Origin: Nitrosopumilales archaeon
GTDB taxonomy: Archaea > Thermoproteota > Nitrososphaeria > Nitrososphaerales > Nitrosopumilaceae
Length of the DNA: 35,008 nucleotides
Direction of reading: 5' to 3'
NCBI GenBank assembly: GCA_016838845.1
Contig: JAEHKV010000143.1
Coordinates: 1-35,008, forward strand
Position numbers and translations under genes: made by a program. The first letter of the stretch is position 1. Each line of letters opens with the position of its first letter. Under the pieces are notes generated by a model. The model worked only from the letters and a program-made list of their open reading frames with translations. It was not told where the DNA came from and searched no databases. This document shows positions 4,326 to 22,366 of this stretch, one piece after another.

Positions 4326-4448
4326 AGCACAACTGTTTCAAATGAATCAGATCCCAATTTATGCCTGAAATATGCTCAAGATGAATGATTTTTTGCCATG
4401 TTTTGCATAATCAATAAAGTTTGCAATCTATTTTTTTATTCTAAATTA

Positions 4449-4466
4449 ACATTTGATACGAACTGT
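4449..4466 (+). repeat. Dispersed core repeat, copy 4
   Basis: A perfect consensus core ACATTTGATACGAACTGT preceded by TTA. It lies in the 207-nt space between the receiver/HTH gene and the cyclase-like gene, 58 nt before the latter's start. A weak partner-like ACCGTTATGTAATTT follows at about 4469. The TATA-like box of the next gene lies downstream of it. Confidence 0.75.
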
Positions 4467-4492
4467 CAACCGTTATGTAATTTTTAAGACAA

Positions 4493-4504
4493 CTTTATTA
4501 AATT
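4493..4504 (+). promoter_or_regulatory. TATA-like box for the cyclase-like gene
   Basis: CTTTATTAAATT is centred about 26 nt before the ATG at 4524, the normal archaeal TATA-to-start distance for a leaderless transcript. No ribosome binding site is present before the ATG, which agrees with leaderless translation. Confidence 0.45.
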
Positions 4505-4523
4505 CATCAATGCTTAATATTTA

Positions 4524-5231
4524 ATGGAATTTAGTGAACCAGAACCACAATTAGAGGATTCTAAGATTCCAAATGAAACTCCTGTAGGTTTTGAGCTTCC
4601 AAATGCGAATCTACAGACCCAGCAAAAAGAAATGTCCGCTGCGGATTATATGGTGGCTTTTTCTGGCCAGTCACAAAATTATTGTGTTGGTATTGTACAG
4701 ATGTGCGAATCAGCTATTATAACCAGTACTCTTCATCGAACAAAAATCATGAAGTATTACGAGGTATTTCTAAATTCCATGTCTCAAGTTTTGTCCAAAT
4801 ACGATGCTAATGTAATGAAAAATGCTGGCGACAGTTTATACTTCTATTTTCCAAGAACAGGCAGGGCTGACAAACAATATGGTTTTATGAGTTGTGCTGA
4901 ATGTGGCATTGAATTAGTAGATATGCGTGACGAACTTAATATGCATTTGGCAAAAATAGATTTGCCACCAGTGAATTATCGTGTTGGCTCAGATTATGGA
5001 CAGGTTGTAATGATGAAATCAAACAAATCTCTTTCAATTGACATGATTGGATCTCCTATTAGCATCTGTACAAAGATAGTTCAAAAATGCCCAGACAATG
5101 AATTTGTTGTAGGCAGTGAATTGCAGAAAATAATCAAGGTCTTTAACGATTATACTTTAGAAGAGATGAAGGGATACGAGTTGGAGATTGGATATGATTA
5201 CAAGACTTTTTCAGTCTCGAGACGATCATAA
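4524..5231 (+). CDS. Class III nucleotidyl-cyclase-homology protein, probably degenerate
   Basis: 235 residues. After a low-complexity N-terminal 45 residues comes an adenylate/guanylate cyclase homology domain (about 50-205). The second metal-site motif is clear (NAGDSLYFYF, Asp103), as is the central YRVGSDYGQVV strand (about 152-162). However, the first metal-binding Asp, expected in the IVD-type strand, is Gln59 (GIVQMCES). The normally conserved Asn of the substrate-binding helix is Ser180 (SPISICTKI), and the usual Arg is Lys184. The paralogue at 8820-9512 keeps the Asp and Asn. The product may bind a nucleotide without cyclising it, or act as a regulatory partner. It sits between a receiver/HTH gene and a histidine kinase. 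Alternative: an active enzyme with shifted ligands. Confidence 0.78.
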   Translation: MEFSEPEPQLEDSKIPNETPVGFELPNANLQTQQKEMSAADYMVAFSGQSQNYCVGIVQMCESAIITSTLHRTKIMKYYEVFLNSMSQVLSKYDANVMKNAGDSLYFYFPRTGRADKQYGFMSCAECGIELVDMRDELNMHLAKIDLPPVNYRVGSDYGQVVMMKSNKSLSIDMIGSPISICTKIVQKCPDNEFVVGSELQKIIKVFNDYTLEEMKGYELEIGYDYKTFSVSRRS

Positions 5232-5276
5232 ATAAAATATAACTACATTCAAAGGACATGTTAAATTCCAAAAACC

Positions 5277-6377
5277 ATGACCTCTGAATTAAAGACAACT
5301 AGACTCGGTACCACAACAGATAAGCTGATCAAAGATGTATCTGAGGCTCGAATTGAGGCCGAATTACAACTTGTACAGTTAAAAAACATGATCAGAGCAC
5401 TTGATGAATCATCAATTGTAACTATAATTGATACTGAAGGACATATCAAATACGTAAACGACAAGTTTTGTGAAGTCTCAAAATATTCTAGAGAAGAAAT
5501 TCTTGGGGAAAAAATCCAAACTATCAGGGCAGAAATCCATCCATCAGAATTTTACGACGAGTTATGGAATACAATAAAGAGTGGCAGGGTGTGGCATGGT
5601 GAGATATGTAACAAGGCAAAGGATGGAAGCTATTTTTGGAACAAAGCTACGATTGTGCCATTTTTTGACAAATACGGAAAAATAATTGAATATGTTGTCA
5701 TTCGAACAGATATCACACAACAGAAAAAAAATGAGAGGTTTCTGGCAATTGGAGAATTAGCTGCTAGGATAGCACACGACTTGCGTAATCCACTCAGCGT
5801 CATCAAAACTACAGTTGATGGCATGACAATCGAGCTTGAGAAAAACCAGAATGGGAACTTGAAACAGAATTTAGAAAGACTAAACCGAGGAGTTAGTAGA
5901 ATGACTCATCAAGTAGAAAATGTGTTAGACTTTGTGAAAGCTGTTCCACTGAATTTACAAAAAACGTCCTTACTTGATGTAATTAGGTCTGCCACTGATA
6001 GAGCAGATGTGGGCTCAACTAAAATAAAATTCCCACAAGATGATATCAAAGTTATCTGTGATGCTAATAGACTGGAGGTTGCATTTGCAAACATTATACA
6101 AAATTCAATTCAGGCAATAAATGGGAATGGTAAAATAGAAATTAGATTTATTGATAATCATTCAGATGTAATGATAGAGTTTGAGGATTCAGGCCCTGGT
6201 ATTACTGAAGAAAATTTGCCAAAAATTTTTGATCCTTTATTTACAACAAAACAAATAGGTACTGGTTTGGGTTTGGTGACAACCAAAAATATAGTGGAAC
6301 AGCATGATGGTGAGATTGCTGTGAAAAATAACCCGACTATATTTTCAATAGAGCTACCAAAAAATCTCTTAGATTAA
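5277..6377 (+). CDS. Cytosolic PAS-domain sensor histidine kinase
   Basis: A 366-residue soluble kinase. Residues 20-45 are a coiled-coil lead. A PAS domain with PAC end spans about 40-150 (DTEGHIKYVN, GEIC.KAKDGSYFWN, VIRTDIT); the GEIC/W-rich form resembles flavin- or heme-type PAS families, but no ligand residue can be assigned. HisKA has His167 in IAHDLRNPL. HATPase boxes are Asn276 (NIIQNSIQAI), DSGPGI (304-309) and GTGLGL (328-333). It begins 45 nt after the cyclase-like gene and has its own TATA-like AAATATAACTA at about 5235-5245. Its stop overlaps by 4 bp the convergent receiver gene at 6374-6724, a natural candidate partner. Confidence 0.92.
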   Translation: MTSELKTTRLGTTTDKLIKDVSEARIEAELQLVQLKNMIRALDESSIVTIIDTEGHIKYVNDKFCEVSKYSREEILGEKIQTIRAEIHPSEFYDELWNTIKSGRVWHGEICNKAKDGSYFWNKATIVPFFDKYGKIIEYVVIRTDITQQKKNERFLAIGELAARIAHDLRNPLSVIKTTVDGMTIELEKNQNGNLKQNLERLNRGVSRMTHQVENVLDFVKAVPLNLQKTSLLDVIRSATDRADVGSTKIKFPQDDIKVICDANRLEVAFANIIQNSIQAINGNGKIEIRFIDNHSDVMIEFEDSGPGITEENLPKIFDPLFTTKQIGTGLGLVTTKNIVEQHDGEIAVKNNPTIFSIELPKNLLD

Positions 6378-6724
6378 TTTAATATTTTCTTGATCAGCTC
6401 ATCAGCATCAAATGGTTTGGTAACTACCGAATGGACAATTTTGTGTTTTGCGATTTCATCTGTTCTATGGTCCAAACTACCGCTAACCACTATTACTTTG
6501 GCATTAGGATCTAACTTGCTAATCTCCTCAACTGCGTAATGGCCATCATATTCTGGCATCAGCAAATCCAACAAGACCGTGTCAGGATTATGTTTTCTGT
6601 AAAGCGTAACAGCATCTTTGCCGTTATATCCAACTCCAATTACATCAATTCCCTTCAATTTCAGAAGGTAGTCTAAACTTTCGACACTGTCTTGATCATC
6701 ATCTATTATTATTACGCTAGTCAC
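6374..6724 (-). CDS. Single-domain receiver (CheY-like response regulator)
   Basis: About 116 residues and nothing beyond the receiver fold: acidic IIIDDDQD, phospho-acceptor Asp in VLLDLLMPEYDG, Ser in VVSGS, Lys in VTKPF. It has no output domain, so it probably works by protein contact. I chose the GTG at 6724, which starts right at the first beta strand and has TTTAAATTAA about 30-40 nt upstream; a TTG at 6784 would add 20 residues unlike the family. Its last 4 bp overlap the 3' end of the histidine kinase gene on the other strand. The sequence is close to the receivers at 3966 and 7271. Confidence 0.88.
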   Translation of the reverse strand: MTSVIIIDDDQDSVESLDYLLKLKGIDVIGVGYNGKDAVTLYRKHNPDTVLLDLLMPEYDGHYAVEEISKLDPNAKVIVVSGSLDHRTDEIAKHKIVHSVVTKPFDADELIKKILN

Positions 6725-6856
6725 CTTTTTACCCAGTTGAATGGCATTAAATAATGTTAATTTAAAAAAACTTTTGATTGGCAATAGTTGCCTTCAAACT
6801 CGTAATCTGACTACAAAGGAATAGTTTTGACCAATATGTTGAAGCAAGAGTGCTAA

Positions 6857-7621
6857 ATGTTTTCATACTATAGAAATATTCCTAAAATGTTGACAAACGT
6901 AGCTGACAGGGATATTTTAATAATTGAAGACGCTGAACCCCTAGCAATTTTGCTTGGTAAGTATTTAAAAAAACTTGGTTACAAAAAAATTCACCATTGC
7001 AAGAATGGCACTTTAGGAATACGGAAATTTCAAGAACTGGTTGAATCAAATAATGTGCCTGTTGTCTTCTTGGATTATTATTTACCAGACATCACTGCAC
7101 TGCTGGTCTTAAAGCAAATTCTTGAGATTCATCCTAGTACAGATGTGATAATAGAAACAGCAGCAAATGAAAGTGAAAGTGGCATTAAGAGGTTATTCGA
7201 ACTTGGAGCCCATAGTTATCTTCCTAAACCGTACGAATTTGAGAAACTAAAAGAGATAATGAACACTCTTGAAGACTGCCAGGGAATTGTAATTGATGAT
7301 GACCCAGACATGGTGGATTCTATTTCAAATATTCTAGAGGACAAAGGTGTATGTATTATAGGCAAAGGATCCAACGGCGAAGAGGCCTTTCAAATGTTTA
7401 AGAAACTGAGACCAAAGTTTGTGATACTAGACATGAAAATGCCCGAATATGATGGAGCCTATGCTATCAAGAAAATAAAAAATGAAGATCCCAATGCCAA
7501 GATTATTGTTTTAACAGGATACCCAGAGTATGCTTTTGATAAAAACGAAGTTACTGCAGTTTTTATCAAACCGTTTAACACAGATGAAATTGTTTCACTC
7601 ATACAAAACACGATTTGTTAG
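6857..7621 (+). CDS. Tandem double-receiver response regulator
   Basis: 254 residues with two receiver domains and no output module. REC1 (about 17-135) has ILIIEDAEP, Asp in VVFLDYYLPD and Lys in LPKPYEF; it resembles the receiver of the zinc-ribbon regulator at 16761-17714. REC2 (about 138-253) has IVIDDDPD, Asp in VILDMKMPEYDG, Thr in VLTGY and Lys in FIKPF; its DNA nearly repeats the receiver of the gene at 3435. The gene therefore looks like a fusion of two receiver lineages. Both phospho-acceptor Asps are present. Possible use: phosphorelay or integration of the two kinases. The ATG is preceded by no clear ribosome binding site. Confidence 0.88.
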   Translation: MFSYYRNIPKMLTNVADRDILIIEDAEPLAILLGKYLKKLGYKKIHHCKNGTLGIRKFQELVESNNVPVVFLDYYLPDITALLVLKQILEIHPSTDVIIETAANESESGIKRLFELGAHSYLPKPYEFEKLKEIMNTLEDCQGIVIDDDPDMVDSISNILEDKGVCIIGKGSNGEEAFQMFKKLRPKFVILDMKMPEYDGAYAIKKIKNEDPNAKIIVLTGYPEYAFDKNEVTAVFIKPFNTDEIVSLIQNTIC

Positions 7622-7630
7622 TAATTGGTA
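7271..7630 (+). repeat. Receiver cassette, copy 2
   Basis: It aligns without length change to 3966-4325, from GAAGACTGCC to the TAATTGGTA after the stop codon. Here it forms the second receiver of a double-receiver gene, while copy 1 is the C-terminal receiver of an HTH gene. Differences are scattered and mainly at third positions. Confidence 0.8.
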
Positions 7631-7646
7631 CTCCATTCTAATTTTA

Positions 7647-7705
7647 ATGAGAAGATGCGCATCTAATGATGGGTTTGGGGCCTGACAATAGACGCACATT
7701 CTCAT
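7647..7705. other. Nested inverted repeat with a 12-bp perfect palindrome
   Basis: AGATGCGCATCT (7653-7664) is a perfect 12-bp palindrome. The outer arms ATGAGAA (7647-7653) and TTCTCAT (7699-7705) are also complementary, with ATGCG/CGCA pairing next to them as an alternative fold. It lies 26 nt after the double-receiver stop. It could be an operator for the next gene, a structured RNA or a 3'-end signal; there is no U-tract. Confidence 0.4.
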
Positions 7706-7795
7706 ATTTTGAAAGAATTGATTTCTATTAACAGGTTGTATGTAACGAATATTACATACGTGTCCTTTTATCAAATCGTGTGTACATTTTACGAT

Positions 7796-7936
7796 ATGAA
7801 AAGAGTAGTCTATATCGAATCGCGTCCAAATTATGGTGTATGGGAAAAGCTGGTTGAGATGGAGGATGACAAAATCGTATTTGAGACCTCTTGGGAACCA
7901 TCCCTAATGTCAAATTCAGTTAAGACACCTAAGTAA
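7796..7936 (+). CDS. Small hypothetical protein (46 aa)
   Basis: ATG at 7796 gives MKRVVYIESRPNYGVWEKLV and so on, a compact mix of charged and aromatic residues with plausible codon use. A longer frame from TTG 7709 adds a less protein-like N terminus. Its 3' part overlaps an open frame on the other strand (7831-8052), so at most one of the two may be real. No family recognised. Confidence 0.38.
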   Translation: MKRVVYIESRPNYGVWEKLVEMEDDKIVFETSWEPSLMSNSVKTPK

Positions 7937-8052
7937 AGTGGATTTTCTAATCTGTTTTTCCAATCTTCCCAAGGAACATGCCAATTTGATTTGTGAGATT
8001 CACCAAGCATAACAGTGATACTAGATTCATCAAAGGGGATTGAATCAATCAT
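7831..8052 (-). CDS. Small hypothetical protein (73 aa), overlapping on the opposite strand
   Basis: Begins MIDSIPFDESSITVMLGESH; the first 45 residues (WHVPWEDWKNRLENPLY) look protein-like with ordinary codon use, while the last part is Ser/Thr-rich and lies opposite the + frame at 7796-7936. The inverted repeat CGTAATC/GATTACG (8053-8059/8068-8074) is immediately upstream of the ATG. No family recognised. Confidence 0.3.
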   Translation of the reverse strand: MIDSIPFDESSITVMLGESHKSNWHVPWEDWKNRLENPLYLGVLTEFDIRDGSQEVSNTILSSSISTSFSHTP

Positions 8053-8074
8053 CGTAATCTTAGTAATGATTACG
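8053..8074. promoter_or_regulatory. Inverted repeat CGTAATC-N8-GATTACG
   Basis: Perfect 7-bp arms separated by 8 nt, placed directly before the minus-strand ATG at 8052 and about 135 nt before the plus-strand receiver gene. Position and symmetry suit a dimeric repressor site, but no second copy is seen. Confidence 0.3.
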
Positions 8075-8108
8075 AAGTTTGATGTTGTGGTGGTTTTTAT
8101 GACCTTGG

Positions 8109-8123
8109 AGAGTCATCGACTCT
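8109..8123. other. Short perfect hairpin
   Basis: AGAGTC, loop ATC, GACTCT: a 6-bp stem with a 3-nt loop, about 87 nt before the receiver gene at 8210. No U-tract follows, so a terminator is unlikely. Function unknown. Confidence 0.25.
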
Positions 8124-8209
8124 AAAACTAATTCCAAATCAGCTGTACATTGTTTCTCTGGGATACACAAATTGCCAAAACAAAGAAATAGTCCAAATAG
8201 ATAAACGCG

Positions 8210-8575
8210 GTGTTGATAAACAAGACAATTCTTATTGTTGATGACGATCTAGATGTAAAAGAATCCACTAGATTTGTATTGGAAAAAAATGGTTATGATG
8301 TAGCAGTAGCCTGTGGTGGAAAAGATGGAGTAGAAGAATATGCCAAGTCGAATCCAGACCTCACTTTTATGGATATTAAAATGCCTGATATGGATGGTTA
8401 TGATGCATTCTTTAAAATTCACGAAAAAGATCCAAATGCAAAGGTTGTATTTGTTACAGGATATACAATAGAAGACGATAGATATGAACAAGCAAAAAAA
8501 TATAATCTAATAGATACATTATACAAACCAGTGGATTTTAACTTTCTTCTAAAATTTATCAAAGAACACGCTTGA
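8210..8575 (+). CDS. Single-domain receiver (CheY-like response regulator)
   Basis: 121 residues comprising one receiver domain: acidic pair Asp11/Asp12 (VDDD), phospho-acceptor Asp55 (FMDIKMPDMDG), Thr83 (VTGY) and Lys106 (LYKPV). It is less similar to the other receivers of the island than they are to each other. The start is GTG at 8210 or TTG at 8213; no ATG is available before the first beta strand. It converges on the cyclase gene at 8820. No kinase is adjacent, so its partner must come from elsewhere in the island. Confidence 0.88.
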   Translation: MLINKTILIVDDDLDVKESTRFVLEKNGYDVAVACGGKDGVEEYAKSNPDLTFMDIKMPDMDGYDAFFKIHEKDPNAKVVFVTGYTIEDDRYEQAKKYNLIDTLYKPVDFNFLLKFIKEHA

Positions 8576-8596
8576 ATTTTTCCAAGTTTTTAAATC

Positions 8597-8659
8597 ACAT
8601 TTGATACGAACTGTTAATCCTGAAAATTCTTAAATCAGACTGTTATCATTACAAAATGT
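8597..8659 (+). repeat. Dispersed element, copy 5 (with weak inverted partner)
   Basis: A perfect core ACATTTGATACGAACTGT (8597-8614) is followed by TTAATCCTGAAAATTCTTAA, nearly the same spacer as in the 26762 copy, then ACTGTTATCATTACAAAATG (8639 on), a partner with small insertions. Total length about 63 bp, like the 64-bp copy at 26762. It lies just after the receiver gene, between convergent genes. Confidence 0.7.
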
Positions 8660-8714
8660 CTGCGTGAGTCACAATCAGATATCCATCCGCAAGAAATGTG
8701 GTTCGCCTAGGCAA

Positions 8715-8772
8715 CTAAGTGAGGGTTTCAAGGCACAATACTTGTTTGTCACGAATTCACTACCTCACTTAG
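8715..8772. other. Long-loop inverted repeat between convergent genes
   Basis: CTAAGTGAGG (8715-8724) is perfectly complementary to CCTCACTTAG (8763-8772). Within the 38-nt loop CAAG (8729-8732) can pair with CTTG (8741-8744). The unit lies between the 3' ends of the receiver and cyclase genes. It may be a structured RNA or a transcript-end structure; no function is assigned. Confidence 0.35.
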
Positions 8773-8819
8773 AATTTAAATCCTTAATTCTTGTTGAAAT
8801 AAATGGTGTATTGAACCAT

Positions 8820-9512
8820 TTACTTATTTTTTAACAAGGCGAATACAGGATAATCAAATTTGAAACCCAGTGAAACGCCAGATTTTTGTTTGAAAGAATA
8901 CCCCTGAATATTTTTTACATTTTGATAAAGGTCATTTCCGATTATCATACTGTTTGGGTCTGCCTTTCGATTAATTTTAGAACAAATGTTGACGGTAGGA
9001 CCAAAGATATCGTCGGATGAGGCCGTAACTGATTTTGCTAACATCACGGTGCCATAATCAGCGCTAATTCTATAACTAACAGATGGCAATCCTGCATCAT
9101 GCATGCTTTCATTAACAATTTTTGAACATTTGAGCATAATCATACCACACTCTAATGTTTTAGCAAAAGATCTTCCATCGGGATTTTTTTCGTCACAAAA
9201 ATAATACAAGAGACTATCTCCCACGTTTTTTACTACACAGGCACCATATTCCCTGGCAATCAGTGCCATCGCATTAAGGAATATACCATAATACTTGCAG
9301 GTGTCTTCTCTTGAGAGGTGTGCAGTTACCTTTGTTGAGCCAACTGCATCAACCATGGCCACACAACAATTCTTGGTTTTTCCATTAAAAGAAATTGTTT
9401 CATCAATATTAGATTTTAAGCGTTCAGTAAGGTAAGCATAGCCACTATCCTCTAACCACCCTTGCAAGGGAGTAGCTAAATATTGTTTTTTATTGGAAGC
9501 TTTCGTATTCAT
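8820..9512 (-). CDS. Class III nucleotidyl-cyclase-homology protein (catalytic residues largely kept)
   Basis: A soluble cyclase-homology protein, paralogue of 4524-5231. Numbered from the upstream TTG at 9545, the metal-binding Asps are Asp66 (AMVDAVGST) and Asp110 (NVGDSLLYYF); YRISADYGTV (about 158-167) and GPTVNICSK (182-190) match the substrate site with Asn186, although Lys190 stands where Arg is usual. This suggests a possible active adenylate or diadenylate-type purine cyclase; the substrate cannot be told. I chose the ATG at 9512 because the residues before it are not family-like and CATAATG lies about 45 nt upstream; TTG 9545 adds 11 residues. No regulatory domain is attached beyond a 50-residue N-terminal helix. 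Confidence 0.82.
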   Translation of the reverse strand: MNTKASNKKQYLATPLQGWLEDSGYAYLTERLKSNIDETISFNGKTKNCCVAMVDAVGSTKVTAHLSREDTCKYYGIFLNAMALIAREYGACVVKNVGDSLLYYFCDEKNPDGRSFAKTLECGMIMLKCSKIVNESMHDAGLPSVSYRISADYGTVMLAKSVTASSDDIFGPTVNICSKINRKADPNSMIIGNDLYQNVKNIQGYSFKQKSGVSLGFKFDYPVFALLKNK

Positions 9513-9733
9513 CTTGCGATCGTTTCCAGGGTCGGACTGGAACAAACATTATGCTTCTTTGCCCACTCATGCTGGTATTACGTTATGTAAGCACATAAGA
9601 AGATAGGAACTTTCGCACAAAAACCGAGTCCAAAATGGAAAAACAAACTAAAATTTATGTTTGAATAAATTACTAATCGATCTAAAATTATGCCATAAAC
9701 GGTCTGGCTCATCATACTTCTAGTTAGAGATAA

Positions 9734-10084
9734 ATGGAATTCATTTGGATTCCTCATGTGGCAGAAGTTACTGAATATAGAATTGCACAAATTGTTGATA
9801 ATGGACAAATAGTACAAATGTCACTTGTAGAAAATGTTCAGACTGAGCCTATATCACAAAAACAGATGATCATGGAATCAGTATCAAAAAAACTAGATGA
9901 TGAGACAAAAAAGCAGGTATTTCCTCTACTTGACGCAATCCTGCAGGCACAGCCAACAATCAAAATCAAGAGCTACCAACAGACTTCGATTACCATCACT
10001 ATGCCAAAAAACAGGTATGAAAGGATGGGTCGACCTCAAGTTGGTGAAAAACTTGACGTGAATTTGAAGAAAATAGGTGTATGA
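9734..10084 (+). CDS. Conserved-looking hypothetical protein (116 aa)
   Basis: A soluble protein beginning MEFIWIPHVAEVTEYRIAQI, with an N-terminal beta-rich part (1-35), a helical centre (40-75; KQMIMESVSKKLDDETKKQV) and a C-terminal strand-rich part ending in VGEKLDVNLKKIGV. No signal peptide and no cysteine. Not recognised. The ATG is 188 nt from the divergent cyclase gene and about 90 nt before the glycosyltransferase gene, which has its own TATA box. Confidence 0.7.
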   Translation: MEFIWIPHVAEVTEYRIAQIVDNGQIVQMSLVENVQTEPISQKQMIMESVSKKLDDETKKQVFPLLDAILQAQPTIKIKSYQQTSITITMPKNRYERMGRPQVGEKLDVNLKKIGV

Positions 10085-10143: not shown

Positions 10144-10155
10144 TTTTTTAAATTT
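10144..10155 (+). promoter_or_regulatory. TATA-like box for the exopolysaccharide operon
   Basis: TTTTTTAAATTT is centred about 26 nt before the TTG at 10176. This spacing supports TTG 10176 as both transcription and translation start of a leaderless operon message. Confidence 0.5.
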
Positions 10156-10175: not shown

Positions 10176-12194
10176 TTGAAAAATACTAGTTTAATTCAAA
10201 AATGTGAACTTTGTAAAAAAGAGTTAGGATTTAATGATAGGACTATCAGACATGAAAAAAAATGGTATCATGCGGAATGCTACAGATCAACTACCCAAGA
10301 AAAAACTGTAATCGAAAATACATATTCAAAAAAGGAACCTGTGGTAAGAGCAATTATAGTAAAAGCAGTAGAAAAAATTACTAAAGCCACAGTGGTAAAA
10401 ACAATTTCAAAACAATCTTCTAAAGTTGTAGTACCAGAAAAAAAATCTGAAACAATTTCGAGGTGCGGTCATTGTAAAAAAGAATTAGAATTTCATGACA
10501 GAACAGTCAGACATGGAAAAAAATGGTATCATGCGGAATGCTACAAATCAACTATTGAAGTAAAGCCTTTAGAAAAAGAACAGGTAGTAAAAGATACCAT
10601 AGTAGAACTAATTCCAAAATCACCTGTTGAAAAAGTTGTGGAACTAGAAACAAAACCAGAACGAACTATGAAAACGAAAGAACTTGAGATTGAAAAAAAG
10701 CGAGTTGTCGATTTGGAAGAGCAAGTAGTTCTTCCAAAAGTTAAACTCGATCCTGTTTTGATTCTTATTTCTTGCGGGATATTCTTTTTTCTTTTTTGGA
10801 CACCATTTACTTTGCTAGCAGGCTTTAGTGTAGGCGCGATGATGCTGGGTGGATTTTTGGTAATTTATCAGGTGTTGGATGCAAGACGTTGGTCAAAATC
10901 AAAATTTAGAACTGGTAAACATAAACCAGGTATTTTTTCTCTACTTCTCTTGGTCCTGCCTTTTGTTTTTGGCGGAGTCCTTGGTTATGAAGGATATACA
11001 CTCTGGGAATCTGGATATCGAGCGATAATTTTATGGGGATTGACAATTACCTTTTGGAGTGTTATGTTAATGGTTCCCTTGGCACTATATAGTAAAAACA
11101 AGGAAGAACAAACACCACGACCCCTTCAGTATCCAATGATTAGTGTGATTATTCCAGCATATAACGAAGAAAAAGTAATTGCAAAGACAATTGAAAGCGT
11201 AATGGAAATTGATTATCCAAAAAAAGAAATAATCGTTGTAGACGATGGAAGCAAAGATAAGACATTGCAGATTGCTAACGAGTATAAACGAGATAAGGTC
11301 AAAGTTTTACATAAAGAAAATGGCGGTAAGGCGTCTGCACTTAATTATGCGATGGCCTTTGCAAACGGAGAAATAATAGCGGTACTAGATGCAGATACTA
11401 TAGCTGGGAAGAATTCGTTAAAAGAAATTGCAAGAATATTTGGTGATGATGAAAATGTTGGTGCAGTAGCAGGAAACATAAAGGTTAGAAACAAAGTGAA
11501 CTGGCTCACCTGGTGTCAAGCTCTTGAATATGTTGCTGGATTACAAATTGCCAGGAGAGCTTTTGATTTATTTGGTGCTATCACAGTTGTTCCAGGGGCC
11601 TTGGGATCATTTAGAAAGTCTGTGCTTCAAGAGGGGGGTGGATACGATAAGGAAACACTCGTAGAGGATGTTGATACAACAATAAAAGTTCTAAAGTCTG
11701 GAATGGTAGTAAGAGGAACCACCAAATCAATAGCGTATACAGAAGCACCAGAATCCCTGCGCGATTTTTACAATCAAAGAAAACGTTGGTTTAGGGGCAA
11801 TCTTCAAGTACTTGTGAAGCATCGTAACGCTCTAACAAATCCACGTTTTGGTTTTTTACAGAAACTTGCATTTCCGTATATGGTGCTTGGAATGATAATT
11901 TTGCCGATAACAGGTTTTATTATGATCGCTTCTGCGATTATTGCAGTAATTCAGGGTGACTATGTCTTTGTTTTAGGTTCCTTCGCATTCTTTGCTGGTC
12001 TTCAATACCTATTGGTTGCCCTAGCAGTGAGAATAGACGGTGATGACCCCAAATTGATATTCTTCTCGGTCTTCTTTATTATCGGATTTAAGCAAATACT
12101 TGATTTTATTCTAATAAGGCAGCTACTTGAACAAATTTTCGGCAGGAAAGCTCGTTGGACAAGAACAAAGAGGGTTGGGTTTGATGAGCGCTGA
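10176..12194 (+). CDS. Processive family-2 glycosyltransferase with two N-terminal half-LIM zinc modules
   Basis: 672 residues. Two zinc modules with identical spacing, CxxC-x18-HxxC (Cys10, Cys13, His32, Cys35; Cys97, Cys100, His119, Cys122), each followed by a Lys-rich linker, face the cytoplasm. Three membrane spans follow (about 192-234, 253-275, 283-305), then the GT2 domain: PMISVIIPAYNE (320-331), VVDDGS (354-359), DAD (405-407), ED (497-498) and the processivity motif QRKRW (534-538). About three more spans close the protein. The layout matches PgaC/IcaA-type poly-N-acetylglucosamine, hyaluronan or cellulose synthases, which polymerise and export a glycan. Overlap of 11 bp with a downstream deacetylase points to an N-acetyl-hexosamine polymer. 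The zinc modules are unusual for this family. Start is TTG. Confidence 0.9.
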   Translation: MKNTSLIQKCELCKKELGFNDRTIRHEKKWYHAECYRSTTQEKTVIENTYSKKEPVVRAIIVKAVEKITKATVVKTISKQSSKVVVPEKKSETISRCGHCKKELEFHDRTVRHGKKWYHAECYKSTIEVKPLEKEQVVKDTIVELIPKSPVEKVVELETKPERTMKTKELEIEKKRVVDLEEQVVLPKVKLDPVLILISCGIFFFLFWTPFTLLAGFSVGAMMLGGFLVIYQVLDARRWSKSKFRTGKHKPGIFSLLLLVLPFVFGGVLGYEGYTLWESGYRAIILWGLTITFWSVMLMVPLALYSKNKEEQTPRPLQYPMISVIIPAYNEEKVIAKTIESVMEIDYPKKEIIVVDDGSKDKTLQIANEYKRDKVKVLHKENGGKASALNYAMAFANGEIIAVLDADTIAGKNSLKEIARIFGDDENVGAVAGNIKVRNKVNWLTWCQALEYVAGLQIARRAFDLFGAITVVPGALGSFRKSVLQEGGGYDKETLVEDVDTTIKVLKSGMVVRGTTKSIAYTEAPESLRDFYNQRKRWFRGNLQVLVKHRNALTNPRFGFLQKLAFPYMVLGMIILPITGFIMIASAIIAVIQGDYVFVLGSFAFFAGLQYLLVALAVRIDGDDPKLIFFSVFFIIGFKQILDFILIRQLLEQIFGRKARWTRTKRVGFDER

Positions 12195-14955
12195 AAAATC
12201 AATGTCTGTGGTAATGAGATACAAATTTTTGTTAGCAGCTTCGCTAGTTTTTTTCTTTATTATAACAGGTTCAACCTTATCCTTTGCTGAAGAAGCTACT
12301 GGCTCGATTAAATTGGAAATCAAATACACCAACCTTGATAGGATCAATAATTATCAAACGGTCTTACAAGTATTCCAAGATAATGGTGATAGTCCCTATG
12401 TTACCATTGAATTTCCCGAATCAAATCCGTATTTGATTGACTCACTTCCGTTAGGTCATAAATACACAGTGAAAGTTTATGTGAACAACATGTTTGCTGG
12501 TACAGGTTTTCTTAATTTAGAAGAAACCGAAGGACAAATAAAAATAAACATTCCACTTCAGGGAGGATATCGGTTTATAGCATTATACAATGATGATGAA
12601 ACACCGATAGAAGGTGCAATAGTATCTATAAAATCAGATGACGGTCATCAATGGAACCAAGGAAACACTGATAGTGAGGGCAAAACCACGAGATTTTGGT
12701 TACAGTCAAACAATTTAGTGGAAGATGACTATTACATAGCAGAAGTTTCACTGGATGAAGGCCTGGTTTATTCATATTCTCCCGTTATTTTTCATCCAGC
12801 AATTCAAGGAGACATTAAAATAAAAACACCGTGGCCGAAGATAATAGATTATCTCGTAACTATCTCAGTTTACAAGGATGTTTCGCAAAAAGTAGGTAAA
12901 TCTGATGGAAGTTTCATGGTAGAATTGTACGACGCAGAAAACAACAAAGTTGCTCAATCCTCAGTTAACTCACGTGGCGACGCATTCTTTTCAAACTTCA
13001 AGGTCGGAAAGTATTCAATTCAAGTGATTAAGAGTACTGATGATCCTAACCAAGAATCTGAAATCTGGGCTACCAAAGGCACAGCTATTACAGGGGAAGA
13101 GAGATTCATTTCAATTTTTAAAAAGGGTGTTTTAGATCAAAGTGCTCAAAGCACCTGTAACTGTGTGGCATTTAGATTAGACGATATTCAAGATTACTAT
13201 ATTCGAGTTCCTGCAGTAGATCTCATGGAATTATTCCAGCAAAAAAAAGCGGATCTTACAATTGGAATAATTGGTGGCTTCTTTGGAGAAGATCCACATC
13301 TAGTTGATTTTCTCAAAAGAGTAATAGTAAATAAGTATGCAACGCTTGAGATTGCAAGTCACAGTTGGAATAATAAACCATTAACTAATTTTGATAAGAA
13401 TGGTCAGAATACTCTTCTTCTAAAAACAAATGAAAAATTACTTGAAGTTCTTGGAGTAACCCCGAAAACACTCATTGCACCACATAACGAGTTTAATGAT
13501 GACACATTGGCTCTGTTGCCTGAGCTGGGTTTCACACATCTTACTGCTCACATAAAGGAAACTCACTCTCCACCATATCCTTTTGAAAATTTGGAGCTTT
13601 ACTATTTTCCTGCAAGTACTCAAACGGCCAAACTGCTGCCTGATGGAGTTACTTGGGTAATTCAGGATCGTGCGGTAACACTTGAGGAAATTCATGGTTT
13701 TCTAAACAAATACGGCTTTGCGGTAGTGATGATGCATCCCTACGAGTTTTCAACTACTGAATTGGGAGTCTACACTGGTGAGACAGACAAACAAATGATT
13801 GGTGAGGTTGGGAAGCTTATTGACGAATTAATAGATGAAGGAATAAAATTAGTTACCGTAAGCGAAATTAATGAAGAGGCCAGAAGGGTCAGCGAACAAG
13901 AGGTGGTTAAGAAACCAGACGTCTCACAGGTTACACCTCAAAGTTGTGATTGTGTGGCATTTAGATTTGCTCCCGTCCAAGATTATTTTTTAAATAATGT
14001 TCAGATTGAGATAATTGATACGTTCGTACGAAAAGGTTCCCCCATCACAACCGGTATCGTAGGGAATTTGTTTGGCAATGATGTAAAACTCGTCGATTAC
14101 ATAAAAAATACGTTAGAAAAAAATTGGCAGTTGATTGAAATCGCAAACAACGGATGGGAGTATGAAGATTTTACTGATTTGACATCGGAAGAACAAAGCT
14201 CCCTCATAAAACAAAGCAATGATCAAATATCTAGTGTTTTAGACACCGCGCCGGTAGTATTTATTCCACCTTACGAAAATTTTAACGCTGCAACCATTTT
14301 AGCTCTGCGTGAAAACAATATTAACCACATTAGCTCGACCATTAAAAAAGATCCTCCCCCATATCAACTCAGCAACTTGGAGTTATACCATTTCCCAAGT
14401 GGAGCTATAACTGGTAAATTTAATCCGGAATCTGGAGTTATTGAGCTAATTCCTTATGAGGAAACGTTTTCAGAGGTACAAAAAATTCTAGACCAACATG
14501 GCTTCACAGTGGTCACTGTACAATCCCCAGAATTTTCAGTAATAGAGAATGGTAATTACGTGAATCAGGTGGATGAACAAAAAATCCATGAGCTTGAATT
14601 ACTTATAGATATGATTCAAGCCCAAGGTTTGAAAATAGTTCCATTAGGAGAGATTGACCTTCACTCCGGAGGCATATCAATACCAAGCTGGATTAAGAAT
14701 AATGCCGGTTGGTGGTCAAAAGATCAAATCGGAGATTCTGATTTTGTCTTAGGAATTCAGTTTTTGATAAACGAAGGAATAATGAGAGTCCCTCCATCAA
14801 CGACAGATTCTACCTCTGAGATGACTAATGAAATTCCCTCTTGGATAAAAAACAATGCTGGATGGTGGTCCCAAGGAGTGATCACTGATACAGACTTTGT
14901 ATCAGGGATACAGTGGCTAATAAATAATGGAATAATAAAAATAGCAGATGCGTGA
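12184..14955 (+). CDS. Secreted tandem polysaccharide-deacetylase-like protein with C-terminal IPSWIKNNAGWW repeats
   Basis: 923 residues from the ATG at 12184, overlapping the glycosyltransferase stop by 11 bp. A signal peptide or anchor (about 11-35) is followed by beta-sandwich-like regions (40-310). Two NodB-type domains follow. The first (about 324-565) keeps Asp333-Asp334 (FRLDD), His393 (IASHSW) and a late His518 (MMHPYEF). The second (about 588-830) has the same frame but Ala-Pro at the DD position (FRFAPVQD) and Asn656 where His393 stands (IANNGW), so it is probably inactive and may bind glycan. Two C-terminal repeats (about 845-885 and 889-923), each starting IPSWIKNNAGWW, are a module common in thaumarchaeal exported proteins. 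Expected role: de-N-acetylation of the glycan made by the preceding synthase, as PgaB/IcaB do. A longer frame from 12127 would lie within the upstream gene. Confidence 0.88.
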   Translation: MSAEKSMSVVMRYKFLLAASLVFFFIITGSTLSFAEEATGSIKLEIKYTNLDRINNYQTVLQVFQDNGDSPYVTIEFPESNPYLIDSLPLGHKYTVKVYVNNMFAGTGFLNLEETEGQIKINIPLQGGYRFIALYNDDETPIEGAIVSIKSDDGHQWNQGNTDSEGKTTRFWLQSNNLVEDDYYIAEVSLDEGLVYSYSPVIFHPAIQGDIKIKTPWPKIIDYLVTISVYKDVSQKVGKSDGSFMVELYDAENNKVAQSSVNSRGDAFFSNFKVGKYSIQVIKSTDDPNQESEIWATKGTAITGEERFISIFKKGVLDQSAQSTCNCVAFRLDDIQDYYIRVPAVDLMELFQQKKADLTIGIIGGFFGEDPHLVDFLKRVIVNKYATLEIASHSWNNKPLTNFDKNGQNTLLLKTNEKLLEVLGVTPKTLIAPHNEFNDDTLALLPELGFTHLTAHIKETHSPPYPFENLELYYFPASTQTAKLLPDGVTWVIQDRAVTLEEIHGFLNKYGFAVVMMHPYEFSTTELGVYTGETDKQMIGEVGKLIDELIDEGIKLVTVSEINEEARRVSEQEVVKKPDVSQVTPQSCDCVAFRFAPVQDYFLNNVQIEIIDTFVRKGSPITTGIVGNLFGNDVKLVDYIKNTLEKNWQLIEIANNGWEYEDFTDLTSEEQSSLIKQSNDQISSVLDTAPVVFIPPYENFNAATILALRENNINHISSTIKKDPPPYQLSNLELYHFPSGAITGKFNPESGVIELIPYEETFSEVQKILDQHGFTVVTVQSPEFSVIENGNYVNQVDEQKIHELELLIDMIQAQGLKIVPLGEIDLHSGGISIPSWIKNNAGWWSKDQIGDSDFVLGIQFLINEGIMRVPPSTTDSTSEMTNEIPSWIKNNAGWWSQGVITDTDFVSGIQWLINNGIIKIADA

Positions 14956-14975
14956 TCAAATTAAATTTTAATCTT

Positions 14976-14981
14976 GGAGGT
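14976..14981 (+). promoter_or_regulatory. Shine-Dalgarno site deciding a TTG start
   Basis: GGAGGT ends 10 nt before the TTG at 14992. It is one of the few strong ribosome binding sites in the window and sits in the 36-nt gap between two operon genes, as expected for internal genes of an otherwise leaderless operon. Confidence 0.65.
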
Positions 14982-14991
14982 TCATCTTTAA

Positions 14992-16716
14992 TTGATTAAA
15001 CTTTCAAATTTCTTAATTTTGTTTTTGGTCTTCATGCTAGGTATGGCCCTTTTTAGTTACCAAGACACAAATGCACATTTTCATTGTGGACAATCTTTTG
15101 CACCATTTGTTAACTTGAGTACTTGTGATCTCACCGGTCAAGAACTCTTTCAAGTGAACCTCTCGGGAGCGGATCTTTCTGGCGCTAACTTCTCTGGAGG
15201 TATTTTCAAACGCGTAGACTTCGCAAACGCCACCCTTACAGGGGCAAACCTGTCTGGGATTGACTACTTCCAGGGTATACTTTCAGGTGCTAACCTCATG
15301 GGTGCAGACCTCTCAAATGCAAAGATCGATGAGGTCGCCGTCATTGCAGTTGATTTTTCAGATGCTATTCTCAAAGGCATAAGTATCTCAAATTTGAGCG
15401 CTGAAGGATCGAACTTCTCAGGTGCCGACCTCTCTGGAGCCATCATAAAAGGTGCTAGTTTCCTAAATGTTGACTTTACTGGGGCTAACCTCTCAGGAAT
15501 TGATCTCTCAGAAATCAACCTTGCAAATAGCAAACTCAAAGATGCAAATCTTTCAGGAGCTGACCTCTCGAAAGCTTCCCTCTTAGGAGTCGACCTTTCT
15601 GGAGCTATTCTCAATGGTGTTGACCTCTCAAAAGCTAATGTCAGAGAAAGCAACCTCTCAAAGGCTGATCTATCAGGGGTCATTCTTAATGCTACAGACT
15701 TTACAGATTCTGACTTCTCTGAGGCAAACCTCTCAGGGGTTGATTTCTCCGGAGCTGTTTTCAAAAATGTAGTCTTCACAAATGCTGATTTATCAGGAGC
15801 TAGCCTCAAAGGAACCGACATTTCTGGAGCTATTCTAAAGGGCGCTGTCCTTACAAATGCTGATCTTTCAGAAGTCGTTCTCAAGGGAGTAGATCTTTCA
15901 GGCATTGACTTCAAAGGAGTAAATCTCTCAGGAGTTGATCTCCACGAGGCTGTTCTCAAAGGTGTAGACCTTTCAAATGCAAATCTCAAAGAATCCAATC
16001 TCTCTGGAGCTAACCTTTCGGATGCAAATCTAAAAGGTACAGACTTTTCAAATGCAAATCTTAATGGTGCTGACTTTTCAGGAGCTCATGTCTCTGGAAT
16101 TAATCTCTCAAATGCAATTCTCTCAGGAGCTAACCTTTCAGGACTTGATCTCTCGCAAGTAATTCTCAAAAGTGCAGACCTCTCAAATGCTGATATCACA
16201 GGAGCTGACCTCTCAGATACTGATCTCTCGAAAGCAGTCTTCAGTGGTGCAGACCTCACAAATGCTGATATCACAGGAGCTAACCTCTCGGGTGCTGACC
16301 TCAATGGTGCAGACCTCTCAAATGCTAAACTATCAAGAGCTGACCTCTCAGGAGCTAACCTCTATGGTGCAATCCTCAAAGATGTCGATTTCTCGAATGC
16401 TAATATGAAAAGGATTGGCCTCTCAGGAGTTGATCTGTCAGGAATCAACCTCTCAGGAGCTGACCTCGAGCGCGCAGACCTCTCATATGCTGATCTCACA
16501 GGAGCTGACTTTTCAGGAGCTAACCTTGAAAGCGCAGATCTCTTTAAAGCTGTTTTCAAAGGGACTGACTTTTCTGGAGCAGATCTAACCAATTCAGACG
16601 TTGACCTAATTGATATTGAGAAAGCAAAAACTGATGGTAAGACAAAGCTGCCTGAAAAAGGATTTTTCTTCTTTAGAGAAATCTATAATTTATTCAGGAG
16701 TATCTTTGGTTTCTAG
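14992..16716 (+). CDS. Secreted pentapeptide-repeat beta-helix protein
   Basis: 574 residues. A signal peptide (MIKLSNFLILFLVFMLGMAL, cleaved near DTNA) precedes about 490 residues of pentapeptide repeats of type A(D/N)LSG, roughly 95-100 units, which fold as a right-handed quadrilateral beta-helix. At about 4 pentads per turn this predicts a rod of some 24 turns. A short N-terminal Cys pair (Cys32, Cys44) and a C-terminal cap (KTDGKTKLPEKGFFFFREIY) bracket it. The frame starts with TTG behind a strong GGAGGT and follows the deacetylase by 36 nt, so it is the third operon gene. A role in organising or tethering exopolysaccharide is inferred from position only. The 15-bp repeat period produces long false frames on both strands. 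Confidence 0.88.
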   Translation: MIKLSNFLILFLVFMLGMALFSYQDTNAHFHCGQSFAPFVNLSTCDLTGQELFQVNLSGADLSGANFSGGIFKRVDFANATLTGANLSGIDYFQGILSGANLMGADLSNAKIDEVAVIAVDFSDAILKGISISNLSAEGSNFSGADLSGAIIKGASFLNVDFTGANLSGIDLSEINLANSKLKDANLSGADLSKASLLGVDLSGAILNGVDLSKANVRESNLSKADLSGVILNATDFTDSDFSEANLSGVDFSGAVFKNVVFTNADLSGASLKGTDISGAILKGAVLTNADLSEVVLKGVDLSGIDFKGVNLSGVDLHEAVLKGVDLSNANLKESNLSGANLSDANLKGTDFSNANLNGADFSGAHVSGINLSNAILSGANLSGLDLSQVILKSADLSNADITGADLSDTDLSKAVFSGADLTNADITGANLSGADLNGADLSNAKLSRADLSGANLYGAILKDVDFSNANMKRIGLSGVDLSGINLSGADLERADLSYADLTGADFSGANLESADLFKAVFKGTDFSGADLTNSDVDLIDIEKAKTDGKTKLPEKGFFFFREIYNLFRSIFGF

Positions 16717-16760: not shown

Positions 16761-17714
16761 TCACATATTGGCTGTTTTAAAAAATTGACTAGTTTTCCAT
16801 CGGACCTCTTCAATTGAGGACTTATTTTCACATTTTAAACAAAGGAATGAAGAAGATAGTTCCTGAAATATTTCACCACATTTGTTGCAAATATATCGAT
16901 TTTTAAGTACTCTATAATCAACACCAAGTGCCTTTATTTCTTTTCTACATTTAGGACATTTGTCATCAACATATTCATTTTCCTCAGAAAAATTTCCACA
17001 CTTAAAGTGCTCAATTATCTTAGCCATTTTGAAATCATTTCTTTGACAGGAGGGACAGTAAAATATCTGAATTACTTTTACAGAATCACATTGATTACAG
17101 CTCATCTCTCTTCTATTCTCTAGTTTTGTAAGCTTATTTTTAGATTCTAAATCTTTAATGTAAGATTCAATCTTGACTTCATCACCACCAACCAATTGTT
17201 TAATCATAGTCAAGCTGATTTGTTTTTGTGATTTTAAAACAAAATCAACTTCTTTGTAAAGATCTTTATCTGTATCTGCTGAAACTTTATGTTTAGAGTT
17301 TTTTTCAAAATATTTTCTTTCTTCATCAAGTGTATCAAGAATTTGTTTTAATTTCTCAAATCGTATTGGTTTCTCCATATATTGATATAATCCTCTACGG
17401 ATTAATTCTGTCACACCTGCATCAGTTTTTTCAGTAGCTGTTGAAAGTATTACCTTAACATCTGGTTTGACTTCGAGTAGTTGTGTCATTATAGATTTAG
17501 CATCCATGTCAGGCAACACAAAATCTAAAAGAACAATTGGATCCGTTCCTGATTTAACTAGATCTTTGAAAGAATCTATTCCAGTTTTACCATCTTGGCA
17601 ACTATGAATCTCTTTGTACCCCATACTAGTAAGATAATTTTTCAAAAGTATTGCAGTAGCAACGCTATCCTCAATAATTAGAACATGGTCCTTTTGAGAC
17701 GCCTCCTTCATCAT
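16761..17714 (-). CDS. Response regulator: receiver plus multi-zinc-ribbon output region (thaumarchaeal output type)
   Basis: 317 residues. The receiver (about 8-130) has LIIEDS, phospho-acceptor Asp64 (VLLDFVLPDMD), and Lys in MEKPIRF; it is closest here to REC1 of the gene at 6857. A helical linker (150-200) precedes a Cys-rich C terminus with pairs at 206/209, 220/223, 253/256, 276/279 and 292/295. This arrangement resembles the thaumarchaeal output domain known as TackOD1, thought to bind zinc. Whether it touches nucleic acid or protein is not known. It converges with the exopolysaccharide operon (3' ends 44 nt apart) and follows the DUF255 gene on the same strand. Either of the first two ATGs may be used. 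Confidence 0.85.
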   Translation of the reverse strand: MMKEASQKDHVLIIEDSVATAILLKNYLTSMGYKEIHSCQDGKTGIDSFKDLVKSGTDPIVLLDFVLPDMDAKSIMTQLLEVKPDVKVILSTATEKTDAGVTELIRRGLYQYMEKPIRFEKLKQILDTLDEERKYFEKNSKHKVSADTDKDLYKEVDFVLKSQKQISLTMIKQLVGGDEVKIESYIKDLESKNKLTKLENRREMSCNQCDSVKVIQIFYCPSCQRNDFKMAKIIEHFKCGNFSEENEYVDDKCPKCRKEIKALGVDYRVLKNRYICNKCGEIFQELSSSFLCLKCENKSSIEEVRWKTSQFFKTANM

Positions 17715-19906: not shown

Positions 19907-22366
19907 ATGAAAATTAGATATGTTTTTGGATTTTTGTTGCTGGTAGTTACGATTCTGGCTAGTGTTTCCAGTTTTTCTGCGTATGGTGATGAAGATGATT
20001 TAGATAATGATGGAGTTCCAAACGAACGGGATCATTGCCCTAATTTGCAAGAAGATTATTCAAGTGAAATAGATGGATGTCCTTCTGAACACAAAGTCTA
20101 TCATGACTTTGATAACGATGGAATAGAGGATAGTGATGATCTTTGTCCTAAATACAAAGAAACTTTTAACAAATACCAAGATGAAGACGGATGTCCGGAT
20201 GCTGCTCCGGAAGAACGAGTGGGAGAGGTTCCTGATCTAGACAAGGACGGAATTCCAGATAATTTTGATTCTTGTCCTTCTAGAGCTGAGACCTACAATG
20301 GTATTTTAGATCTAGATGGATGTCCTGACGATTACATTGTTACAACAGATACAGATTCAGATGGGTTACCAGATTCAATTGATGCTTGTCCAGAATTAAG
20401 TGAAACATATAATCGATATTTAGATGAGGATGGTTGTCCCGATTCGCCTGACGAAAGTGTTGATGCATATGAATTCCCAGATATAGATAACGACAGGGTT
20501 GATGATAGGTGGGACCAGTGTTTAGATCAAGCTGAAAACTATAATGGATATCTTGACTGGGATGGATGTCCAGATACGTTTGGTTCGGAAAATACTGGTG
20601 TGATTTTAGATGCTGATCGTGATGGAATTCCATTAGGTCAAGATTTGTGTCCAACGGAACGAGAACGGTACAACGGCTATCTTGATGGAGATGGATGTCC
20701 TGATTCTGTTACGTTTGATTTTTTTCTTTCAGGTTTATTTGATTCAGACTATGATGGAGTGGCAGACATAAATGATTCCTGCCCACTCATTCCTGAAAAT
20801 TACAATAATAATGAAGATGATGATGGATGTCCAGATTCCATTGAGTGGATAGGTAGGGGAACCTATGATTCTGATGGTGATGGACTTTCAGATGTTATAG
20901 ATTTGTGTCCAAATGTGCCAGAAACTTTCAATGACTATTATGATGAGGATGGCTGTCCTGATGAATTGCCTGAAGCAGACTATGACTTAGATGGAATTCC
21001 TAATTATCTAGATGCTTGTCCAGAATTAAGTGAAACCTATAATCGATATTTAGATGAGGACGGGTGCCCAGACAGATTTTATGAGGATCGTATTCTCTAT
21101 GAATTACCAGATGTAGATAATGATGGGATAGATGACAGATGGGACCAGTGTTTAGATCAGGCTGAAAACTATAATGGGTATCTTGACTGGGATGGATGTC
21201 CAGAGGAGATAGGCGCTGAAAATATTGGTGGGGATTTAGATTTTGATGATGATGGGATTCCATTAGGTCAAGATTTGTGTCCAACGGAACGAGAAAGATA
21301 CAACAACTATCAGGATGAAGATGGATGTCCTGACTTTGCACCGCATGACTCTTTAGTTGATTTTGATCGTGATGGCATAGCAGGTACATTAGATGCGTGT
21401 CCATATCAAAAAGAAACTTACAATAAGTATCAAGATGAGGACGGGTGTCCTGATAAATTTGATTTCTATTTCCAACTCCCAGGACTCAAAATAACAAATG
21501 AGGGACGTACTGTTTCAGATACTGATGGAGACGGAGTGTTTGATGAAGTTGATTTGTGCCCCAATCGTCCTGAAACAATGAATGGTTTCTTAGATGAAGA
21601 TGGATGTCCTGATGAGATTAGATCTTTTATCGATTCTGATCGAGACACTATAATTGATATTATTGATGAGTGTCCAGAAGATCCCGAAATTTTTAACAAT
21701 TATCAAGATGAGGACGGGTGTCCAGACAGATTTTATGAGGATCGTATTCTCTATGAATTTCCAGATGTAGATAATGATGGGATAGATGACAGATGGGACC
21801 AGTGTTTAGATCAGGCTGAAAACTATAATGGGTATCTTGACTGGGATGGATGCCCAGATACACGAGCTGCAGAAAATACTGGTGTGATTTTAGACCCTGA
21901 TTATGATGGAATTCCAATAGGTCAAGATTTGTGTCCAACGGAACGAGAAAGATACAACAACTATCAGGATGAAGATGGATGTCCTGACTTTGCACCGCAT
22001 GACTCTTTAGCTGATTCTGATCTTGATGGAATAATTGATACTGCTGACTCTTGTCCAAATGTAAAAGAAACTTACAATAGGTATCAAGACGAAGACGGTT
22101 GTCCTGATTCGGTTGTGAGCGAAAAAGGCTTTATCGATTCTGACGGTGATGGAATACATGACGCAAGAGATTGGTGCCCAAACCAACCTGAGACTTACAA
22201 CGGTATTTTAGATCTTGACGGTTGTCCTGATGATTACATTTCGTCCTATGACTTTGATTCTGATGGTTTGCCTGATGCAATAGATGCATGTCCCGAAGCA
22301 TCTGAAACCTATAACAGATATCAAGATGAAGACGGATGTCCGGATGAAATCCCTATCGGCCAATAA
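19907..22366 (+). CDS. Secreted protein of 19 thrombospondin type 3 calcium-binding repeats
   Basis: 819 residues: a signal peptide (1-27, ending SAYG) followed almost only by repeats of the form D.D.DGIPD..D.CP...[13 protein letters not shown] count 19 units by the D-x-CP/L landmarks. The Asp-rich DxDxDG loops are calcium sites and the paired cysteines should form disulfides, so the protein acts outside the cell. No membrane anchor, sorting motif or catalytic domain is visible. Three longer blocks (20471-20704, 21071-21356, 21725-22010) recur, giving a higher-order repeat. A role in the cell envelope, matrix or calcium-dependent adhesion is inferred. It is divergent from the DUF255 gene. Confidence 0.9.
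20471..20704 (+). repeat. Higher-order repeat block A in the thrombospondin-repeat gene
   Basis: Encodes [20 protein letters not shown] through [20 protein letters not shown]. It aligns to block B with a constant offset of 630 bp, without gaps. It is the most diverged of the three blocks. Confidence 0.75.
21071..21356 (+). repeat. Higher-order repeat block B in the thrombospondin-repeat gene
   Basis: 286 bp starting GACAGATTTTATGAGGATCG and ending in the codons for APHDSL. It is nearly identical to block C at a constant offset of 654 bp; the differences cluster in one internal stretch. Confidence 0.8.
21725..22010 (+). repeat. Higher-order repeat block C in the thrombospondin-repeat gene
   Basis: 286 bp, near copy of block B. 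Long identical runs at the DNA level, for example across the codons for [20 protein letters not shown], indicate recent duplication or ongoing gene conversion. Confidence 0.8.

Follow-up and report, generated by a model that had tools for sequence, protein, structure and literature searches.

A candidate synthase-dependent exopolysaccharide module with a pentapeptide-repeat rod in Nitrosopumilaceae

Gene order at the locus

A stretch of 35,008 nucleotides from a Nitrosopumilales archaeon (GCA_016838845.1, contig JAEHKV010000143.1, positions 1-35,008, forward strand), here called the window, carries three consecutive plus-strand genes that very probably make and modify an extracellular sugar polymer. 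Gene 1 (10176-12194) encodes a processive GT2 polysaccharide synthase, a membrane protein of 672 amino acids with a long N-terminal extension. Gene 2 (12184-14955, with an ATG at 12184) encodes a secreted deacetylase-like protein of 923 amino acids, and gene 3 (14992-16716) a secreted pentapeptide-repeat protein of 574 amino acids that begins with TTG and that we call the rod. Genes 1 and 2 overlap by exactly 11 nucleotides; genes 2 and 3 are separated by 36 nucleotides, with a GGAGGT ribosome-binding site (14976-14981, plus strand) lying 10 nucleotides 5' of the TTG codon. On the opposite strand, a convergent gene for a response regulator of the REC-TackOD1 type (16761-17714, 317 amino acids) ends about 45 nucleotides from the stop codon of gene 3. 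An initial annotation of this DNA had described the three genes at these positions, together with their overlap, gap and ribosome-binding site, and each of these elements was borne out. Its account of gene anatomy was right as far as it went but overlooked the zinc fingers of the synthase, the Ig-like domains, second CE4 domain and C-terminal repeats of gene 2, and the regulator.

The nearest relative (genome G254, locus L066) keeps all three genes with the same overlap and gap lengths. Moreover, the 66 bases that span the junction between genes 2 and 3, GGAGGT and TTG included, are identical in the two genomes, even though their rod proteins share only about 72-81% identity. The three-gene arrangement is not due to chance, because the order of glycosyl transferase and deacetylase recurs in every assessable relative and because four other genomes have the rod downstream of the deacetylase or joined to it.

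The synthase and its deacetylase-like partner

The GT2 catalytic domain of gene 1 (11133-11798, plus strand) matches PF00535 at 9.4e-38, and the processive QxxRW motif reads QRKRW (residues 534-538, nucleotides 11775-11789). Pattern scans placed two LIM-like zinc fingers (CxxC...HxxC) in the N-terminal region, at 10203-10280 and 10464-10541 on the plus strand, and one or two such fingers are present in 25 of 31 synthase open reading frames of relatives. Two peculiarities were seen in relative G334: the synthase reading frame of locus L067 (G334:C146, 225-1688) contains one in-frame TGA, and a second synthase, 52% identical to that of the window, lies on another contig.

Adjacency counts from loci found through the deacetylase are biased, and we therefore relied on a search made with the synthase only. 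The synthase was found in 76 of 200 sampled Nitrosopumilaceae genomes and in 48 of the 119 genomes of good quality. Thirty loci found in this way were fetched, two of them at contig ends, and in all 28 assessable loci a gene 2 homologue (TTR/CE4) lies directly downstream. The comparison thus identifies the synthase and deacetylase genes as a conserved module, in which the product of gene 2 is the constant, predicted exported partner of gene 1. Several of the nearest synthases outside thaumarchaea are likewise coupled to CE4, which lies beside them or is fused to them in haloarchaea, Bacteroidota, Acidobacteriota and Streptomyces; the coupled forms include haloarchaeal neighbours as well as GH18-CE4-GT2 proteins of bacteria and CE4-GT2 proteins of Streptomyces. 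The Streptomyces proteins share the architecture of MatB, a poly-N-acetylglucosamine (PNAG) synthase for which production of the polymer has been reported (PMC5972031). Gene 1 can be assigned to a family of processive GT2 synthases that keeps company with CE4 deacetylases. The fusion with CE4 in its nearest bacterial counterparts, MatB-like Streptomyces proteins included, favours an amino-sugar polymer as its product.

Gene 2 carries an N-terminal signal-like helix and CE4 domains (PF01522, 2.2e-17); Foldseek matches to CE4 structures agree with membership of the NodB family and fold. Residues 37-312 (12292-13119, plus strand) form Ig/prealbumin-like β domains with matches to SpaA and SdrD_B and, in Foldseek, to Gram-positive pilins and SdrD. 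The first CE4 (NodB) domain, CE4a (13159-13908, plus strand), retains the catalytic Asp-Asp (13180-13185), a metal His (13360-13362) and the motif 5 His (13735-13737), but the second metal His is replaced with Asn (13372-13374). Its metal triad is consequently Asp-His-Asn and not the canonical Asp-His-His of CE4 enzymes (PMC5855634), and its motif 2 (SHSWNN), which has no second His, departs from the pattern that the same review gives for PNAG deacetylases, in which four residues separate the two metal His. The second CE4 domain, CE4b (13909-14643, plus strand), is a pseudoenzyme in which Asp-Asp has become Ala-Pro (13969-13974) and both motif 2 His residues have been lost; the catalytic base Asp and the motif 5 His that CE4a keeps are gone from CE4b. 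Among 22 CE4a domains from homologous loci, 19 read D-D-H-N-H at the five key positions and 3 read D-D-H-H-H, while CE4b has drifted in many ways. The constancy of the five positions in CE4a alongside the drift of CE4b suggests that CE4a is under selection. Since the other four positions stay fixed, we infer that CE4a is catalytically active and uses an altered metal site, Asp-His-Asn, and CE4b would be a glycan-binding pseudoenzyme.

A search of the same genome for another CE4 of the gene 2 family returned only CE4a and CE4b, and we found no published description of an Asp-His-Asn CE4 in the open literature. At three other loci (L086 12696-14237, L089 1879-3408 and L095 10587-12128), an intact D-D-H-H-H CE4 gene lies divergently beside the synthase and the CE4 within the operon is degenerate, as if the divergent gene supplied the missing activity. 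The C-terminus of gene 2 consists of two PSWIKNNAGWWS repeats (14659-14952, plus strand) of a kind found in thaumarchaeal secreted proteins. The module, of the form PSWIKNNAGWWS...DFVxGIxxLIxxGII, has no Pfam match yet recurs in 16 stretches of the genome, and it may be a domain by which such proteins are anchored or interact. The AlphaFold model of gene 2 has a predicted local distance difference test score (pLDDT) of 83.0 and a predicted template modelling score (pTM) of 0.38; that of gene 3 reaches 83.5 and 0.62, respectively. Given these low pTM values, the relative placement of domains in either model is not to be trusted.

The pentapeptide-repeat rod and the REC-TackOD1 regulator

Gene 3 matches the Pentapeptide family (PF00805) at 8.7e-136. 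The protein comprises a signal-like helix (residues 3-20), a β-helix (about residues 32-535) and a C-terminal helix with a conserved GFFFFRE motif. Its 101 successive pentapeptides in one register correspond to about 25 β-helix coils and a length of about 12 nm, and its net charge is about -33. Open reading frames on the opposite strand within gene 3 (15264-15998) were taken as shadows of the repeats. We also considered a gyrase protector of the Qnr/MfpA type and rejected it, given the export signal, the fusion of the rod to an exported enzyme in relatives (see below) and a score of 187 bits against the Qnr model, whose cut-off is 240. The cut-off of the HetL model was exceeded, which we took as an effect of repeat number and did not use. 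HetL, Qnr and MfpA share with gene 3 the quadrilateral β-helix of A(D/N)LXX repeats; gene 3 differs from them in being predicted to be exported, in its approximately 25 coils, its Cys N-cap and its GFFFFRE C-tail, and in its place in a glycan operon.

The rod was present in all five loci of one synthase clade (Shimodaira-Hasegawa-like approximate likelihood ratio test support 99), namely those of the window, G254, G334, G186 and G090, and in none of the examined synthase loci outside it. The tree derives from a quick search and has long branches among its distant rows, and the rod clade lies among the short ones. In G334 the rod gene overlaps the deacetylase gene by 4 nucleotides, and this copy is cut by the contig end. 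In G186 and G090 deacetylase and rod form a single in-frame fusion, with open reading frames of 1433 and 1284 amino acids. The rod part of these fusions has lost its signal peptide but keeps the Cys N-cap, which is common to fused and separate rods, and the GFFFFRE tail, which is common to all complete copies; the PSWIKNNAGWWS repeats are missing from the fused relatives and the rod stands in their place.

Because about 28 homologous loci outside the clade lack it, the rod is a lineage-specific addition, and its absence from most loci indicates that it is not needed for basic function. The in-frame fusion in two of the five loci means that it belongs to the system. We consequently regard the rod, from this pattern of occurrence, as a lineage-specific yet integral part, and in view of the gene fusions a functional connection of a β-helix rod with a polysaccharide-modifying enzyme is difficult to deny. 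The proposal in the initial annotation that the three genes form one functional unit to which the rod belongs is supported by the five clade loci and the two fusions; conservation of the rod beside the synthase, on which that proposal was to stand or fall, holds within the clade and does not extend beyond it.

The convergent regulator scores 89.8 bits against TackOD1 (PF18551, cut-off 32) and 55.9 bits against Response_reg (cut-off 30.2). A REC-TackOD1 homologue lies beside the module in 21 of the 29 loci where this region is visible, and only about two to three TackOD1 genes per genome score above the cut-off. TackOD1 genes are also found directly upstream of related synthases in Methanosuratincola (L109 7931-8938) and on a Dehalococcoidales contig (L110 6298-8766). 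The gene arrangement indicates that the TackOD1-synthase link holds within Nitrosopumilaceae, Methanosuratincola and that contig. The Dehalococcoidales TackOD1 gene also holds REC-like and Mrr-like domains, and in genome G065 a second, divergent synthase copy (L073 11542-13512) adjoins a TackOD1 regulator and not a deacetylase.

Possible function, alternatives and known systems

Taken with the mechanism proposed here, the reading of genes 1 to 3 as a synthase-dependent exopolysaccharide module of Nitrosopumilaceae is one that we consider somewhat probable. From what is known of its family, gene 1 would polymerise an N-acetylhexosamine-type glycan from the cytosol and export the chain through its own membrane channel. 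Outside the cell, the Ig-like and dead CE4 domains of gene 2 would hold the emerging chain and CE4a, judging from its conserved active-site positions, would remove some of the acetyl groups by means of the variant metal site. Fusion and co-occurrence suggest that the rod sits on the deacetylase or beside it and serves as a spacer or scaffold. At the cell surface it may carry or organise the polymer, a partly de-acetylated and positively charged chain that its strongly acidic surface would suit. Judging from the gene neighbourhood, the REC-TackOD1 protein is the probable regulator of the module and would act on transcription or by way of the zinc fingers in the N-terminal part of the synthase. 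A possible further step, which we put forward tentatively and which is more apt to fail than to hold, is a matrix machine in which the rod, separate or fused, organises the partly de-acetylated polymer of a zinc-finger synthase under REC-TackOD1 control.

Attachment and aggregation of ammonia-oxidising Nitrosopumilales are poorly understood. Given the occurrence of the synthase in more than a third of the genomes sampled, the module constitutes a concrete candidate locus, and it suggests that many Nitrosopumilaceae are able to make at least one such polymer. Its neighbour provides a first handle on TackOD1, a widespread and uncharacterised archaeal output domain whose function has been described as obscure (PMC5847659). 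If the matrix machine were real, TackOD1 would gain a first testable role and a class of Asp-His-Asn CE4 enzymes would be defined.

Several points weigh against the proposed exopolysaccharide module and its mechanism. Gene 1 scores 198.7 bits against PgaC_IcaA (TIGR03937), 224 bits short of the equivalog cut-off of 422.3, and the sequence does not reveal which substrate it uses. The conserved Asn of CE4a may abolish metal binding, and since proteins without the conserved motif 2 His have been listed as inactive (PMC5855634), CE4a might do no more than bind glycan. That gene 3 is co-transcribed and its product secreted and placed at the surface is predicted from the DNA, and the rod is missing from most homologous loci. 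Finally, of the 30 best TackOD1 hits across the phylum, just 2 have a synthase within 1.5 kb. We therefore rejected an exclusive pairing of TackOD1 with this synthase; the domain is found in many other contexts and is not dedicated to the function of the module.

The polymer could instead lack amino sugars and be cellulose-, mannan- or hyaluronan-like, with the CE4 pair acting as an O-acetyl esterase or as a purely glycan-binding or anchoring protein. Such a product would accord with the shortfall against PgaC_IcaA, with the solved structures that match gene 1 (cellulose, hyaluronan, chondroitin and chitin synthases, all at similar weak scores), with the acetylxylan esterases that appear among the Foldseek matches of gene 2, and with an active site that lacks the canonical triad in CE4a and is dead in CE4b. 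The nearest synthase relatives are, however, coupled or fused to CE4, MatB-like proteins among them, and PgaC_IcaA is clearly the best NCBIfam model for gene 1, above CelA and NodC. We find this alternative doubtful, if worth keeping in view.

A different objection concerns the rod: it might be a surface or S-layer-associated protein in its own right that happens to lie downstream, and the fusions seen in two relatives would then be incidental. Pentapeptide proteins are common in these genomes, and the many homologous synthase loci without a rod would be in keeping with such independence. Yet the same partner is kept across a 36-nucleotide gap, a 4-nucleotide overlap and in-frame fusions, the N-cap and C-tail persist in the fusions, the presence of the rod tracks the synthase clade exactly, and the junction of genes 2 and 3 is 100% conserved in G254, which makes an unrelated rod unlikely. 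It is also conceivable that the deacetylase acts on S-layer glycans or on environmental chitin-like material and that the synthase product serves cell-wall glycosylation and not a matrix. Nitrosopumilaceae possess an S-layer, and in the fold search the Ig/prealbumin domains of gene 2 come out similar to surface proteins, an archaeal S-layer protein included. The invariable pairing of gene 2 with a processive synthase argues instead for action on the product of gene 1, and we judge this last alternative very improbable.

The exopolysaccharide module that we prefer resembles pgaABCD of Escherichia coli and icaADBC of Staphylococcus in combining a processive GT2 with an exported, CE4-fold deacetylase-like protein in one operon. 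The matrix-type synthase/deacetylase system envisaged in the initial annotation is in this sense supported, but its direct equation of the first two genes with PgaC/PgaB or IcaA/IcaB is not supported. The synthase falls far below the family cut-off, the canonical CE4 triad and the PNAG-type His spacing are absent, and no PgaA, PgaD, IcaC or IcaD counterpart is adjacent. Nor do the Pfam matches of gene 2 include a PgaB-type C-terminal glycoside hydrolase (GH153-type), in place of which stand the second CE4-like domain and the repeats. We accordingly rejected membership of the PNAG systems and retain them as an analogy of working. The Ig-like domains, dead CE4, β-helix rod, zinc-finger synthase N-terminus and REC-TackOD1 neighbour further set the module apart.

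MatAB of Streptomyces and the bacterial GH18-CE4-GT2 fusions likewise couple a GT2, here of the nearest bacterial branches, to an extracellular CE4. There CE4 and GT2 form one protein, whereas the module has separate genes; the CE4 of MatB resembles canonical deacetylases, unlike that of gene 2, and neither bacterial system has a rod. Among CE4 proteins, pseudoenzymes such as BA3943 (PDB 7bkf), and also BA0150 (PDB 4m1b), show the same NodB fold with altered catalytic residues, but gene 2 places a near-intact and a dead CE4 in tandem and its Asn substitution is conserved through the family. Nitrososphaera viennensis has exopolysaccharide clusters whose genes, among them those for a glycosyl transferase and an exported polysaccharide deacetylase, are upregulated on solid surfaces (PMC11561398, citing Kerou et al. 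2016). These clusters are described for Nitrososphaerales, and Nitrosopumilales are reported as limited in exopolysaccharide capability; the text consulted mentions neither a pentapeptide rod nor a tandem pseudo-CE4 nor a link with TackOD1. We found no published description of the module in the open literature.

Other features of the window lie around the three genes. A TATA-like box, TTTAAA (10147-10152, plus strand), about 26 nucleotides 5' of the start codon of gene 1, would fit a leaderless transcript starting at that gene if it acts as a promoter, and the sequence around it, GAATTTTTTAAATT, is also found in L066. Immediately upstream, positions 9734-10084 encode a 116-amino-acid protein without Pfam match that is 94% identical in G254, where it precedes the same synthase. 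Further upstream (3429-9545) lies a dense signalling cluster with several REC proteins, which was not seen beside the module in G254; its members include a helix-turn-helix REC protein (HTH-REC, 3429-4316), a histidine kinase (5277-6377) and class III cyclase-like open reading frames (4524-5231 and 8820-9545). On the other side of the module, positions 19907-22366 encode a large protein with thrombospondin type 3 repeats.

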